This document shows, one piece after another, positions 6,595-13,815 of a stretch of DNA of 64,000 bases; the first letter of the stretch is position 1; each line of letters starts with the position of its first letter. The position numbers and the translations under genes are program-made. The stretch comes from a virus: the IMG/VR virus record IMGVR_UViG_3300025120_000001, positions 1-64,000 of that record. One strand, written 5' to 3'. The notes under the pieces were generated by a model. The model did no database searches, had not been told where the DNA came from, and saw nothing but the letters and a program-made list of their open reading frames with translations.

Positions 6595-7242
6595 ATGAAA
6601 GTTTTAATAAAAAGTATAGCAATAATAGCAACATGCATTGGATTGTCTTTCGGGGTATTAGCATTGTTGGCATTTGTAGCAGGACCATCTAAAAGTGAAA
6701 TAGAGTTTAATAGAAAAGCTGATAAATTAATATCTAAAGCTACTGAAGCAAGAATGTATTGTAACCAAAATTATTTTAATGAAGAATTTTGTATTCTTAT
6801 AGATATGAGTATTCATTCTGGTAAAAATAGATTTAGAGTTTATAATTTTAAGCAAAATAAAGTAACACATAGTTATTTAGTTAGCCACGGCTGTGGTGAT
6901 AACCAATGGACAAGTGATCAAAGCAAACGTTCTCCAGAATTTAGTAATGTAGAAGATAGTCATCTATCCTCTCTTGGTAAATATAAAATAGGAAAACGTG
7001 GTTGGAGTAACTGGGGCGTGCATGCAAAATATTCGCTGCATGGTTTAGAAGAATCTAATTCTAATGCATTTAAGCGTTGGGTTGTATTTCATTCATGGGA
7101 TATGATATCAGATGAGCCAACTTATCCTACAGGTACTCCAGAAGGTTGGGGATGTCCTGCTGTTTCTAATAAAAGTTTTAAGGAAATAGATAAATTAATT
7201 AAAAGTCAAACAAAACCCACATTAATGTGGATTTATAAATAA
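6595..7242 (+). CDS. murein L,D-transpeptidase-like protein (YkuD_2 family)
   Basis: 215 residues with an N-terminal membrane/signal segment (residues 5-28) and an extracytoplasmic catalytic domain. H166 in FHSWDM and C187 in GWGCPAVSN match the His and catalytic Cys of the L,D-transpeptidase family that cross-links or cleaves peptidoglycan peptides. Found early rather than in the lysis cassette, it may modify the wall during infection (exclusion, or preparation for lysis). The DUF1287 lipoprotein two genes downstream suggests a shared envelope task. Confidence 0.8.
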   Translation: MKVLIKSIAIIATCIGLSFGVLALLAFVAGPSKSEIEFNRKADKLISKATEARMYCNQNYFNEEFCILIDMSIHSGKNRFRVYNFKQNKVTHSYLVSHGCGDNQWTSDQSKRSPEFSNVEDSHLSSLGKYKIGKRGWSNWGVHAKYSLHGLEESNSNAFKRWVVFHSWDMISDEPTYPTGTPEGWGCPAVSNKSFKEIDKLIKSQTKPTLMWIYK

Positions 7243-7248
7243 TCAATT

Positions 7249-7497
7249 ATGAAAAAGATAATAGTAATAGTATGTATTCTGACTGCATTTTTTACCGGAA
7301 TATGTCTGACTTCACTTTTGAAGAAAGAAAAAGTAATATTTGTCCACAAACAGTGTGATGAAGGAAAATGTATCTCTTTTAAAGATTTATATATGATTGA
7401 AGAAGGCCTAGATGATATTAGATATTATACTAGTATGACGGGCTGGGAAGATAAAATAGTAAACAGAACAAGAGAAATTAATCAAATTATAAAATAA
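7249..7497 (+). CDS. 82-residue membrane-anchored protein
   Basis: One N-terminal hydrophobic helix (residues 3-24), then a short region with CDEGKC (two Cys) and a helical tail. Likely anchored with its C-terminus outside the membrane. It lies between two wall-active genes and could be a partner or spanin-like protein. No family recognised. Confidence 0.6.
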   Translation: MKKIIVIVCILTAFFTGICLTSLLKKEKVIFVHKQCDEGKCISFKDLYMIEEGLDDIRYYTSMTGWEDKIVNRTREINQIIK

Positions 7498-7502
7498 AAA
7501 TT

Positions 7503-8240
7503 ATGAAAAATTTAACAGGTATAATATTATTATCCATGCTACCACTATGTTTGGTGGCATGTGATTGGTATCCTTCAGAAGAACAATGGGGAGCATATGT
7601 TGATAAAGTTATTGAATCAGAAGTAGATTTATCAAAAGTTGATTCAACATATACATCTGGTGAAAAAGCAGCAGCACATGCATATAAACAAACAGTACAA
7701 AATACTGTATATGATGGTAGTTGGGTTAATATAGGATATCCCGGTGGAGATCCTGGTTATCAACAAGGTGTTTGTACAGATGTTGTAATTAGAGCGTTGC
7801 GTTTTATAGATATAGATTTACAAGAACTAATTTATAAAGACATGCAAGTTGCGCATGATGAATACAACAGAAGGTATCGTACTAAAAAGTTAGATAACAA
7901 TATTGATCATAGAAGAACTCAAAATATACAAACATTCTTAACAAGAATGGGCGCTAAGGTTAAAACATATAAGAATTTAAGAGATTCTTATCAGCCTGGT
8001 GATATAGTATTTTGGGATATAGCTGCGGGTCATACAGGTATTGTTAGTAATGACATGGCTCCAAATGGATATTATAAAGTTATTCATAATATAGGTGGAG
8101 GTGCTCAAAAAGAAGAGCTTTTATCTGATTGGATACCCATTGAAGTTTACAGACTTACTGAAGATAATGTAAAAAAGCTAAGTGAAGCTTGTACATTTAA
8201 GTATGATGAAACAAAAGATTTCAAGAGATATGTCCAATAG
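7503..8240 (+). CDS. DUF1287 lipoprotein (NlpC/P60-like cysteine hydrolase fold)
   Basis: 245 residues. The signal peptide ends in the lipobox LVAC with lipidated C20. Residues 75-215 match DUF1287: NIGYPGGDPG, GVCTDVVIRALR (C91), NNIDHRRTQNIQTF, YQPGDIVFWD, GHTGIVS (H177) and VIHNIGGG (H195). The Cys and His spacing fits a papain-like peptidoglycan amidase or peptidase. A secreted, membrane-tethered enzyme acting on the cell wall is inferred. The last 11 nt overlap the helicase gene. Confidence 0.85.
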   Translation: MKNLTGIILLSMLPLCLVACDWYPSEEQWGAYVDKVIESEVDLSKVDSTYTSGEKAAAHAYKQTVQNTVYDGSWVNIGYPGGDPGYQQGVCTDVVIRALRFIDIDLQELIYKDMQVAHDEYNRRYRTKKLDNNIDHRRTQNIQTFLTRMGAKVKTYKNLRDSYQPGDIVFWDIAAGHTGIVSNDMAPNGYYKVIHNIGGGAQKEELLSDWIPIEVYRLTEDNVKKLSEACTFKYDETKDFKRYVQ

Positions 8241-9366
8241 AGAAAAGATTCAAAGAGAAGCTTTAGAAATAACCCTAGGTCACAGACGCTGTGGCTTAGG
8301 GATTTCTATGGGTGTTGGTAAAACTAGAATAGCATTACAACATCTTATAAAGAATTACCATCCTGTATGTAAATATTTAGTTGTAGTACCAAAAAATACT
8401 GTAATAGACTCATGGAATGATGAAATGGACAAGATGGTAGATCAGTTTAAAGATCTATCAGATGAGAATTATAAGATAGATTTAGAAGTTATTAAACAAC
8501 AAATACAATTTGTTAATTATAGATCTATAAACAAACTTGATCCAACTCACTACAATGTAGTTTATTTAGATGAATGTCATAACTTATTATTTTCGCATGA
8601 AGAGTTTCTTAAAAACTATAATGGGAAGGTTTTGGGTTTAACTGGTACACCACCTAGAAAAGGATCAGAAAAGTATACAATGGTTCAAAGGTATTGTCCT
8701 ATTGTATATGAGTTTAGTGTAGATGAGGCAACAGATAGTAATATACTTAATGATTATAAAATTATCATACATCTTTTAGAATTATCTAATGGACAAAATC
8801 TCCAAAAGAAAAACAAAAATGGAGGGGTATGGTATACATCTGAGGTAAAAGACTATGCTTATTTAAATAGGCGTTGGCAAGAAGCTATGACCGGTAAGCA
8901 GCAGCAAATGGCTGCAATTATGAGAATGCGTGGTTTAATGGAATATACTACTAAAGAAGATTATCTAAAAGATATTTTAAGAGATATTTCATCTAAATGT
9001 ATCATATTTGCTAATACGCATAAACAAGCTGATAGAGTATGCTCTCATAGTTACCATTCTGGTAACTCAAAATCTGAAGACAACTTAGAATTATTTAGTG
9101 ATGGAAGAATTGATAAATTATCTTGTGTCTTACAGCTTAGTGAAGGTATATCTATTCCTAATTTGGGTCAAGGTATTATTATGCATGCTTATGGTAATAA
9201 TAGAAAATCAGCGCAAAGAATAGGTAGGCTATTAAGATTGTCACCAGATCAAAAAGCAACGTGTCATATATTATGTTATAAAGGCACGCAAGATGAAAAA
9301 TGGGTTGAAAAAGCATTAGAAACATTTGACCAAAATAAAATAGAATATTTTAATCCTTTAATATGA
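8230..9366 (+). CDS. SF2 (SNF2/DEAD-like) helicase
   Basis: 378 residues. Walker A GVGKT (residues 28-32), Walker B DECH (about 114-117), motif III-like LTGTPPRKG, and motif VI QRIGRLLRLS near residue 330 give both RecA-like domains. The ATG at 8230 is chosen over 8182 because it overlaps the upstream stop by only 11 nt and puts the Q-motif-like region at the N-terminus. It probably unwinds or remodels DNA in replication or recombination, as similar genes do in crAss-like phages. Confidence 0.88.
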   Translation: MSNREKIQREALEITLGHRRCGLGISMGVGKTRIALQHLIKNYHPVCKYLVVVPKNTVIDSWNDEMDKMVDQFKDLSDENYKIDLEVIKQQIQFVNYRSINKLDPTHYNVVYLDECHNLLFSHEEFLKNYNGKVLGLTGTPPRKGSEKYTMVQRYCPIVYEFSVDEATDSNILNDYKIIIHLLELSNGQNLQKKNKNGGVWYTSEVKDYAYLNRRWQEAMTGKQQQMAAIMRMRGLMEYTTKEDYLKDILRDISSKCIIFANTHKQADRVCSHSYHSGNSKSEDNLELFSDGRIDKLSCVLQLSEGISIPNLGQGIIMHAYGNNRKSAQRIGRLLRLSPDQKATCHILCYKGTQDEKWVEKALETFDQNKIEYFNPLI

Positions 9367-9638
9367 GTATAACAACAGAAGAATTAGAAGAATTATTAAA
9401 CGAAAGTGAGTTGGGTGAACAAGCAAAGCTCATATTATACAATGATGACGTGAACACATTTGATCACGTCATTAATTGTTTACAAATTTACTGTGATCAT
9501 TCTGAAATTCAAGCAGAACAGTGTGCTACAATAGTGCATCATAACGGTAAATGTTGTATAAAAAAAGGTTCTAAGTTTAAAATAAACATGGTAAATACAA
9601 TGTTAAACCTTAATAAGTTAAATTCAGAAGTAGAATAA
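9363..9638 (+). CDS. clpS: ClpS-like adaptor of the Clp protease
   Basis: 91 residues. The ClpS core is clear: YNDDVNTFDHVI (N27, D28, D29), QAEQCATIVHHNGK (H59 equals the conserved substrate-pocket His), then KKGS. In bacteria ClpS delivers proteins with N-terminal degron residues to ClpA/ClpC. No clp chaperone or protease gene is visible here, so the protein would act on the host Clp machine. Probably taken from a Bacteroidetes host. Its start overlaps the helicase stop (ATGA). Confidence 0.88.
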   Translation: MSITTEELEELLNESELGEQAKLILYNDDVNTFDHVINCLQIYCDHSEIQAEQCATIVHHNGKCCIKKGSKFKINMVNTMLNLNKLNSEVE

Positions 9639-9868
9639 TGGGAAGAATGAAAGAACTATACATTCAAAGTTTAGAAGAAGAATATGGAGATGATTTATCT
9701 GGATATTTTAATGAACAAAGAGTGTATGAAGGATTTTCAGTATCAGATATAACATGTCCTAATTGCATGAAAGAAAAGTTAGCTCAAGACAGTGAAACTG
9801 ATCTAAAATGTTTTAAATGTGGGCATGAATTTATCAAGATAGGTGAGAAAACAATAAAATTTAAATAA
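9638..9868 (+). CDS. zinc-ribbon protein, 76 aa
   Basis: CPNC near residues 41-44 and CFKC near 59-62, a CxxC/CxxC zinc ribbon, follow an acidic helical start; the tail is basic. Such small ribbons bind nucleic acid or proteins such as RNA polymerase. Start shares a base with the ClpS stop (TAATG). Confidence 0.65.
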   Translation: MGRMKELYIQSLEEEYGDDLSGYFNEQRVYEGFSVSDITCPNCMKEKLAQDSETDLKCFKCGHEFIKIGEKTIKFK

Positions 9869-9885
9869 CCACTAAACCAAACATA

Positions 9886-10452
9886 ATGAAAGTATTTAAA
9901 AAATTAATGAAATTCATATTACTAGCAATATTAATGACCAGTCTTAGTATATACTTATCACATTATATAACGGTTGGTGAGCATAACAAAAACGGCAGTA
10001 AAGAGATATATTTACATGATAATGGTGTCCATGTGGATATAATTATTCCATGTAAAGATGGCAGTTTTGCAGCATATGGATGGGGATCTAAAGTATTTTT
10101 CATGGATGTACCATCTTGGGATGATTTAACCTATAAAGTTGGATTTCAAGCTTTATTTACAAAACCGGCATCTTGCATGCGTGTAACTAAATACACAATC
10201 TATAATCCTAAGTGGAAAACAATAAAGTTATCTGAGGATCAATTGTTTAAGGTAAAGGCTGAAATAGATATAAAATTTAAATATACTAGTATAGGAAATA
10301 GAATTCATATTAGAGATGGATTTTATGAGGCAGAAGGATGTTACAATGCTCTTAACACATGTAATACATGGGCTAATGGAGTATTAAAGTCAGTTGGATT
10401 AAAATCCAGGTGGTATATATTAACCAGTGAATCATTAAGTGAATTATATTGA
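9886..10452 (+). CDS. DUF2459-like envelope protein (NlpC/P60-like fold)
   Basis: 188 residues with an N-terminal membrane segment (residues 8-27). NGVHVDIIIPCKDG (H49), the YGWGSKVFF region and CNTWANGVLKS (Cys near 159) match the TIGR02117/DUF2459 family, which shares the circularly permuted papain-like arrangement of His and Cys. Extracytoplasmic location inferred. Third wall- or lipid-directed enzyme of the early region. Confidence 0.7.
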   Translation: MKVFKKLMKFILLAILMTSLSIYLSHYITVGEHNKNGSKEIYLHDNGVHVDIIIPCKDGSFAAYGWGSKVFFMDVPSWDDLTYKVGFQALFTKPASCMRVTKYTIYNPKWKTIKLSEDQLFKVKAEIDIKFKYTSIGNRIHIRDGFYEAEGCYNALNTCNTWANGVLKSVGLKSRWYILTSESLSELY

Positions 10453-12280: not shown

Positions 12281-12653
12281 TATTTTTTTAAAGCTCTCTG
12301 TCAAAGATGGAGAGCTTGATTTTCCAGCAAAAATCCAGAAAACAAGACTGGATGCATTTCTTAAAGATGTACCTGATGGTGCTAAAATGGAAGTGTTTAT
12401 AAGTGTTAGTACTAGAAAAGGTAGTAATGCACAGCTTGCAAGGTTGCATGCCATGATTAGAGAACTAGCAAATGATATAGGTTACACCTTTATGGAGATG
12501 AAGCTCATTGTAAAAAGACAAACCGGTCTTTGTTTTATGAAAGATAAGACAGAGTACTGTAAATCTTTTGCAGATTGTGATACAGATGAATTAAATCTGG
12601 GTATACAAGAATGTTTAAGAATAGGTGATGAACAAGGTATACAGTTAAGATAA
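12270..12653 (+). CDS. possible NinB/YbcN-like recombination accessory, 127 aa
   Basis: An N-terminal beta region, then STRKGSNAQLARLHAMIREL followed by a helical region with Cys/Asp. The run of Arg, Gln/Asn and a Met-containing helix resembles NinB-type single-stranded-DNA-binding recombination proteins, though similarity is weak by eye. An 8-bp hairpin (12291-12298/12310-12317) lies inside its 5' end. The 3' end overlaps, tail to tail, an opposing gene by 9 nt. Confidence 0.45.
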   Translation: MKNNIFLKLSVKDGELDFPAKIQKTRLDAFLKDVPDGAKMEVFISVSTRKGSNAQLARLHAMIRELANDIGYTFMEMKLIVKRQTGLCFMKDKTEYCKSFADCDTDELNLGIQECLRIGDEQGIQLR

Positions 12654-13067
12654 CTGATCATTTACATGTTTATCCATCTTAACATTCATTTCTTTAATTT
12701 TATCAAAGTCATTATCAGCAACTGCTTTAAACAGCTCATCAACCAGAGATTGATCTATGGTAGCATCAACAGATATGTTTAGACCTTGTTTATAAGCATG
12801 TCCTTTAAGAAGTTGTTGCAGTGAAAATATGGTGTATAAATGAGCCTGTTCTTCAGTAAAAGGTTCTTTTTCTAGATCTAGTGTTCCGTCAATGTATCTT
12901 TCAAACTTTTTAAAGTAGGATGTAAGGACACTAGGATCTTTCATCTTATCAATAAAAAATACCATGAGGTCTTCAAGGCCTTTTATATACGTGGTGCTTA
13001 GAACTACGTTTTCAATATTTTTTGAAAAATCATACGTATCTTGCACCTTAACTTTATCTTCAGACAT
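12645..13067 (-). CDS. inverted hypothetical protein, 140 aa
   Basis: Starts MSEDKVKVQDTYDFSKNIE; helical and acidic, without membrane segment or known motif. The ATG at 13067 is chosen because an upstream extension would run through the divergent uracil-glycosylase gene and is hydrophobic junk. It is the only minus-strand gene in the 30-kb early region. It overlaps the gene on its 3' side by 9 nt and has only 28 nt before the divergent gene. Function unknown; a separately timed regulator is possible. Confidence 0.6.
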   Translation of the reverse strand: MSEDKVKVQDTYDFSKNIENVVLSTTYIKGLEDLMVFFIDKMKDPSVLTSYFKKFERYIDGTLDLEKEPFTEEQAHLYTIFSLQQLLKGHAYKQGLNISVDATIDQSLVDELFKAVADNDFDKIKEMNVKMDKHVNDQLS

Positions 13068-13095
13068 AATTGTAAACTTTATAAATATAAATTTA

Positions 13096-13815
13096 ATGAA
13101 TAAAATCAATATAAACATAAATGACGTAAGAAAAAAATTTAAAGACTCTTTCCTTTCAACCGGGTGGAGTAAGATAATGAATCCTATTATTGATTCAGAA
13201 GAATTTGAGATTGCGGTATACAAGTTAAAGTCCTATGTAGAAAATGATCAAAGATTTACGCCTAAATTGTCTCAAATATTCAATGCATTTGTGTATTGTC
13301 CTTATGAAGATTTAAAAGTAATATTTATAGGACAAGATCCATATCCGCAATTAGGAGTTGCTGATGGTATTTCATTTAGTTGTAGTAATAATGATAAACC
13401 TCAACCTTCTCTGAGATATATATTTAAAGAATTAGAAAGACAGTATGCAGCATTTAGAACTAATGACTTACTGTATAATCCATTAGATTTAAAAAGATGG
13501 AGTAATCAAGGTGTGCTAATGTTAAATACAGCATTTACTGTAGAAATAGGTAAAATAGGATCTCATTATGATGTATGGAAACCAATTACTAAAATGATAT
13601 TAGATTCAATAAATGAAGATAAAAAAGATATTGCTGTTGCCTTATTAGGTAAAAAAGCAGAAGAGTGGCATTTGAGATTACATTCTCAAAAAATATTTAA
13701 AGCACCTCATCCGGCATCAGCTGCATATAAAGGTGGAGTATGGAATTCCGGTGATATTTTTCTTAAGATAAATGAGCATTTAAGAGCTCAAGGGATAGCC
13801 CCGATAATTTGGTAA
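13096..13815 (+). CDS. ung: uracil-DNA glycosylase, family 1
   Basis: 239 residues. The water-activating loop IGQDPYPQLGVADGISF (D81; the usual His of GQDPYH is Pro84), the MLNTAFTVE segment, and HPASAA (H205) as the minor-groove loop identify family 1 UDG. It removes uracil from DNA. The ATG at 13096 is used because an upstream in-frame extension to 12964 overlaps the divergent gene and has no family similarity. Uracil glycosylases are usual in crAss-like phages. Confidence 0.92.
   Translation: MNKINININDVRKKFKDSFLSTGWSKIMNPIIDSEEFEIAVYKLKSYVENDQRFTPKLSQIFNAFVYCPYEDLKVIFIGQDPYPQLGVADGISFSCSNNDKPQPSLRYIFKELERQYAAFRTNDLLYNPLDLKRWSNQGVLMLNTAFTVEIGKIGSHYDVWKPITKMILDSINEDKKDIAVALLGKKAEEWHLRLHSQKIFKAPHPASAAYKGGVWNSGDIFLKINEHLRAQGIAPIIW

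Follow-up and report, generated by a model that had tools for sequence, protein, structure and literature searches.

A lone ClpS gene of Bacteroidota type in crAss-related phages

The clpS gene and its neighbours

The stretch of DNA analysed here (the window, 64 kb) is part of a 112,134-bp virus record that is classed as linear and possibly incomplete. On its plus strand, clpS (9363–9638, +; 91 aa plus stop) lies between the gene of a superfamily 2 (SNF2-like) helicase (8182–9366, +; Pfam ResIII and Helicase_C) and that of a 76-aa zinc-ribbon protein of the MGRMKE family (9638–9868, +), whose zinc-ribbon matches are weak and under the cut-off. Both neighbours had been named in an earlier, sequence-only reading of this DNA, and both overlap clpS: the helicase gene by 4 bases (ATGA, with the clpS ATG within the helicase stop) and the zinc-ribbon gene by 1 base (TAATG, where the clpS stop meets the next ATG). 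These overlaps suggest that translation of the helicase, clpS and the zinc ribbon may be coupled. The reading of clpS as a tool of host takeover, put forward at the same time, draws on gene position only. Promoter and terminator scans gave no usable result.

Proteins of cell-wall or envelope type, namely a YkuD_2 L,D-transpeptidase, a DUF1287/CHAP-like protein and a DUF2459 protein, are encoded within the helicase-clpS operon, at 6595–7242, 7503–8240 and 9886–10452, and have hydrophobic N-termini. A minus-strand ORF of 192 aa (12645–13223, −) is embedded in the plus-strand operon, and in the related locus L173 a minus-strand ORF (7104–7571) is found at the matching place.

The sequence-only reading had called the ORF at 9363–9638 (+) a ClpS, with exact coordinates, and the Pfam search, the AlphaFold2 model and the PDB matches all agree. 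The 91-aa product scores 59.1 bits with Pfam PF02617 (ClpS; E 3.7e-16), above the cut-off of 23, and among the PHROGs its top match (E 7e-6) is to a family labelled 'ATP-dependent protease'. Direct comparison with E. coli ClpS gives weak similarity (E 0.0022). Scores against the NCBIfam ClpS equivalogs (PRK13019 and PRK00033 groups), models that may not cover ClpS of the Bacteroidota type, lie far under their cut-offs (best 34.3 bits against 117), and the window ClpS is therefore a divergent one. Its AlphaFold2 model has a pLDDT of 90.2, the leading PDB matches of this model are all ClpS (Foldseek probability 1.00), and the model fits the crystal structure of Mycolicibacterium ClpS within 0.8 Å over 72 columns.

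The residues expected of the N-degron pocket are in place. N27-D28-D29 (codons 9441–9449, +), the motif that binds the α-amino group of the N-degron, aligns with E. coli N34-D35-D36, and the pocket histidine H59 (codon 9537–9539, +) aligns with E. coli H66; the sequence-only reading had pointed out both the motif and the histidine. Comparison with cellular and viral ClpS showed histidine at the H59 position in 100% of the cellular set compared and of the full-length viral ClpS. At the gate position F33 (codon 9459–9461, +; E. coli M40), 98% of the cellular set has phenylalanine, as do all of the full-length viral ClpS. The N-terminal extension ahead of the core (9363–9425, +) is host-like in length, with 21 residues compared with a cellular median of 22 and minimum of 19; such a length should suffice for contact with the ATPase pore. 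Residues 5–16 are predicted to form a helix (pLDDT about 63–74).

The third helix (α3), which in E. coli ClpS bears the ClpA-contacting residues, is diverged in the window ClpS, where residues 70–84 carry a net charge of +2 compared with a cellular mean of −0.65; within this stretch K73 aligns with E. coli K84 (phmmer alignment). This charge reversal was rejected as proof of an altered Clp contact and the argument was dropped, because +2 falls inside the cellular spread, with some cellular ClpS equally basic.

Between the window and its relative L001, clpS has a dN of 0.092 and a dS of 0.33 (dN/dS about 0.28), and the helicase gene a dN of 0.034 and a dS of 0.437. By this ratio, clpS is under purifying selection.

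The phage, its relatives and the history of clpS

The terminase and portal are 20–33% identical to those of Bacteroides crAss phages, Cellulophaga phages and Flavobacterium FpV4-like phages, and the helicase beside clpS has matches in FpV4-like phages and in the Crassvirales member Cellulophaga phi14:2. Further genes of the phage include those for DnaB, a uracil-DNA glycosylase and a DNA polymerase, together with a 5366-aa ORF. Judged by its terminase, portal and helicase, the phage is crAss-related. The cellular ClpS relatives from a genome scan are nearly all labelled Bacteroidota. A Bacteroidota host is thus probable, since both the phage relatives and the type of ClpS point there. Among the rows listed, the highest-identity portal (33%) is that of H54, Leptolyngbya phage Lbo-JY46 (PP438436.1), whose recorded host, unlike those of the other relatives, is cyanobacterial.

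Absence of clpS from all related phages had been named beforehand as one result that would refute a role in redirecting host proteolysis; instead, when viral contigs were scanned with a profile, at least 389 viral stretches proved to encode ClpS relatives. The best 80 of these were fetched. In 76 of 102 viral loci, the direct upstream neighbour of clpS is this same helicase gene. Since the scan patterns included the letters NDD and QAEQCA, the conservation of these motifs in the fetched loci is inflated and was not used as proof of constraint. A second sample was drawn by the DnaB marker, which carries no ClpS bias, and covers the best 80 matches only. There, clpS is present in 1 of 41 close relatives bearing the helicase, a few of which hold the helicase end only; these relatives are presumably marine. 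Given this count, the view that clpS belongs to the core gene set of the lineage was rejected, and its absence from most close relatives makes it accessory. In many relatives without clpS, the MGRMKE zinc-ribbon gene comes straight after the helicase gene, which leaves the empty site visible. Combined, clpS is an accessory gene, yet one under selection.

On the helicase tree, the presence of clpS requires six changes, one of which is due to a mislabelled row: L168 was marked as lacking clpS in error and is the L001 contig, in which clpS is present. In L002 (798–2034), clpS lies directly upstream of DnaB rather than behind the helicase, and thus appears to have moved within the phage genome in that lineage. 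In the ClpS tree, viral and cellular rows interleave with 8 label changes, and the starred branches are compatible with one origin. A single-donor phylogeny was tried and set aside, as 75 columns are too few and the deep forks stay unresolved; of the proposal that phylogeny would find the host donor, the Bacteroidota type of ClpS was recovered, while the tree resolves no single donor.

These data bear on two other explanations. If clpS were a host gene picked up recently and without any selected role in the phage, its patchy presence among the closest marine relatives would be readily understood. However, the purifying selection (dN/dS about 0.28), the deep viral clades, the conserved gene slot and, across one large clade, the shared inheritance of clpS and the helicase all disfavour this explanation, which we consider very improbable. 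Alternatively, ClpS might be a chaperone or regulator that works independently of Clp by binding the N-terminus of a phage protein, for instance within a replication complex that includes the helicase. Such a role would suit the tight linkage of clpS to one helicase gene, with the genes overlapping or nearly touching, as well as its linkage to DnaB in L002. Gene linkage by itself, however, is common in phage operons, and 40 of the 41 marine relatives (DnaB-drawn, best 80) retain the helicase although they lack clpS, which means that the helicase has no need of clpS. This role is therefore an unlikely one. Taken together, the window encodes a genuine ClpS, Bacteroidota in type, that crAss-related phages have long kept.

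Proposed action on the host and a shortened sister clade

Searches for ClpP, Clp_N, ClpB_D2-small and Aat gave no match across the 112,134-bp record, while the controls matched, so the earlier remark that no ClpA, ClpC or ClpP gene lies nearby holds for the whole record. Likewise, each of 14 other ClpS-bearing virus records (100–164 kb) contains a single ClpS and neither ClpP nor Clp_N. With no phage Clp ATPase or ClpP, the phage ClpS must therefore act alone or use the host machine. An ATPase of ClpC type, bearing two Clp_N repeats plus a UVR motif, is encoded in a flavobacterial genome. Furthermore, of 61 genomes from the Capnocytophaga phylum, 59 have ClpS and 57 have Aat, the transferase that makes N-degrons; this draw may take in some distant members because two of the genomes contain an unusual second ClpS. 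In view of these counts and of the flavobacterial ATPase, the phage adds its ClpS to hosts whose Leu/Phe N-degron route is very likely already complete.

ClpS is a small host adaptor that selects proteins for degradation according to their first amino acid. The E. coli protein binds the ClpA N-domain while its pocket grips the N-degron; its extension passes into the pore, where pulling on it drives the hand-over (PMC9663308). On ClpAP, ClpS promotes the degradation of N-degron substrates and inhibits that of ssrA-tagged ones (PMC9663308). By analogy, we propose, with a probability of roughly 55%, that the window ClpS docks on host ClpC as a surplus N-degron adaptor that competes with the host ClpS. 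Owing to the overlapping genes, its production would go hand in hand with that of the helicase and the zinc ribbon, and in the host it would bind proteins whose first residue is a primary N-degron (Leu, Phe, Tyr or Trp). Docking on the N-domain of the ClpC-type ATPase would then let the N-terminal extension enter the pore, and ClpCP would be shifted toward N-degron substrates and away from others, to the benefit of the phage. Because nearly all sampled genomes of the likely host phylum already own ClpS and Aat, the phage protein would act by dose and competition. We consider the surplus adaptor the best reading because every adaptor part that can be read from the sequence is kept in the window ClpS; the intact pocket and the host-length extension favour a working adaptor. 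Two observations count against it, namely the diverged α3 and the lack of clpS in most close marine relatives, the latter indicating that the gene is dispensable in some settings.

The relatives include a viral clade of shortened proteins outside the window, here called mini-ClpS (37 rows, SH-aLRT 98; L003–L015, L140, L142, L150–L153 and others). Counted from the ATG, the N-terminal extension is 7 aa in nearly all of them and 6 and 2 aa in two, and a longer form is ruled out in about half by an in-frame stop within about 10 codons. These proteins have gained a conserved C-terminal tail of about 7 aa, often YESxMH/Y. In the helicase tree, the mini-ClpS phages form one clade with a support of 100, except L014. 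The mini-ClpS model keeps the ClpS fold (pLDDT 92.6), and two pairs tested gave a dN/dS of about 0.17–0.21, in line with purifying selection. The pocket histidine is replaced by aspartate in 11 of the 37 rows. Aspartate also occupies this position in two cellular ClpS, L195 and L198, from genomes with two ClpS copies.

The main rival for the window ClpS is that it serves as an anti-adaptor or sponge, which would occupy host ClpC, N-degron substrates or both but hand nothing over, thereby protecting phage proteins or paralysing N-degron proteolysis. Here the sister group in the same helicase-adjacent slot lends some weight, as it has cut down to 7 aa the extension that in E. coli ClpS is the delivery part (PMC9663308) and in part carries the aspartate in the pocket; the diverged α3 of the window ClpS points the same way. 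The window ClpS itself, however, retains a host-length extension and an unchanged pocket, and we regard this role as rather unlikely for it. For the mini-ClpS clade, the anti-adaptor is the leading reading, since the lost delivery extension and the exchange of histidine for aspartate are what would be expected of an inhibitor. Tentatively, a large group of crAss-related phages may turn ClpS on the host N-degron pathway along two lines, one of full-length adaptors and one in which mini-ClpS has become an inhibitor or has gained a new client. If this is true, mini-ClpS would be a natural counterpart of the laboratory ClpS constructs without the N-terminal extension.

Relation to known systems

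Few tested cases of phage control of host proteolysis are known. The group described here offers hundreds of viral stretches with a lone, well-understood adaptor whose residues are directly readable, in a series from host-like to extension-less forms. With such a readable natural series, it is a simple matter to test if phages promote N-degron degradation or obstruct it, and which proteins are their targets.

Among the closest known systems is the cellular ClpS of Bacteroidota (PF02617), with which the window ClpS shares the fold, the pocket residues, the gate phenylalanine, the QAEQC motif, the extension length and the C-terminal strand. The two are about 43–67% identical over the matched part and at best 51% over the full length. 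They differ in the diverged α3 and in that no clp gene surrounds the phage copy. Among phages, the Crassvirales (Cellulophaga phi14:2 and gut crAss phages) and the Flavobacterium FpV4-like phages have a related terminase, portal and helicase. In phi14:2, the helicase gene is followed by a gene for a dATP/dGTP pyrophosphohydrolase, and ClpS was not found in the stretches of phi14:2, FpV4 or cr111_1 that were searched. No paper on ClpS together with crAss-like phages was found in the literature searched, which leaves most subscription papers outside.

The Bacillus phage SPO1 provides a likeness by role: its Gp53, a 25-kDa adaptor-like protein, acts on host Bacillus ClpC (PMC6873191), and both would be phage proteins that modulate host ClpCP. 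ClpS of jumbo phages has been published, with the suggestion that it brings proteins to host ClpAP (Iyer et al. 2021; PMC7824862), and gp708 of Agrobacterium phage Atu_ph07 is a ClpS (PMC6102473). The latter matches the window ClpS in fold and is just 13% identical to it. Moreover, those are jumbo genomes, and Atu_ph07 carries several other Clp proteins, whereas here a lone ClpS is found in crAss-related phages of about 100–125 kb. Since a jumbo-phage ClpS with the same proposed role has been published (PMC7824862), the window gene is not the first of its kind. It is one of a large group of lone ClpS genes in phages that had gone unreported, and in this group the mini-ClpS clade would represent a form of phage ClpS not described before.
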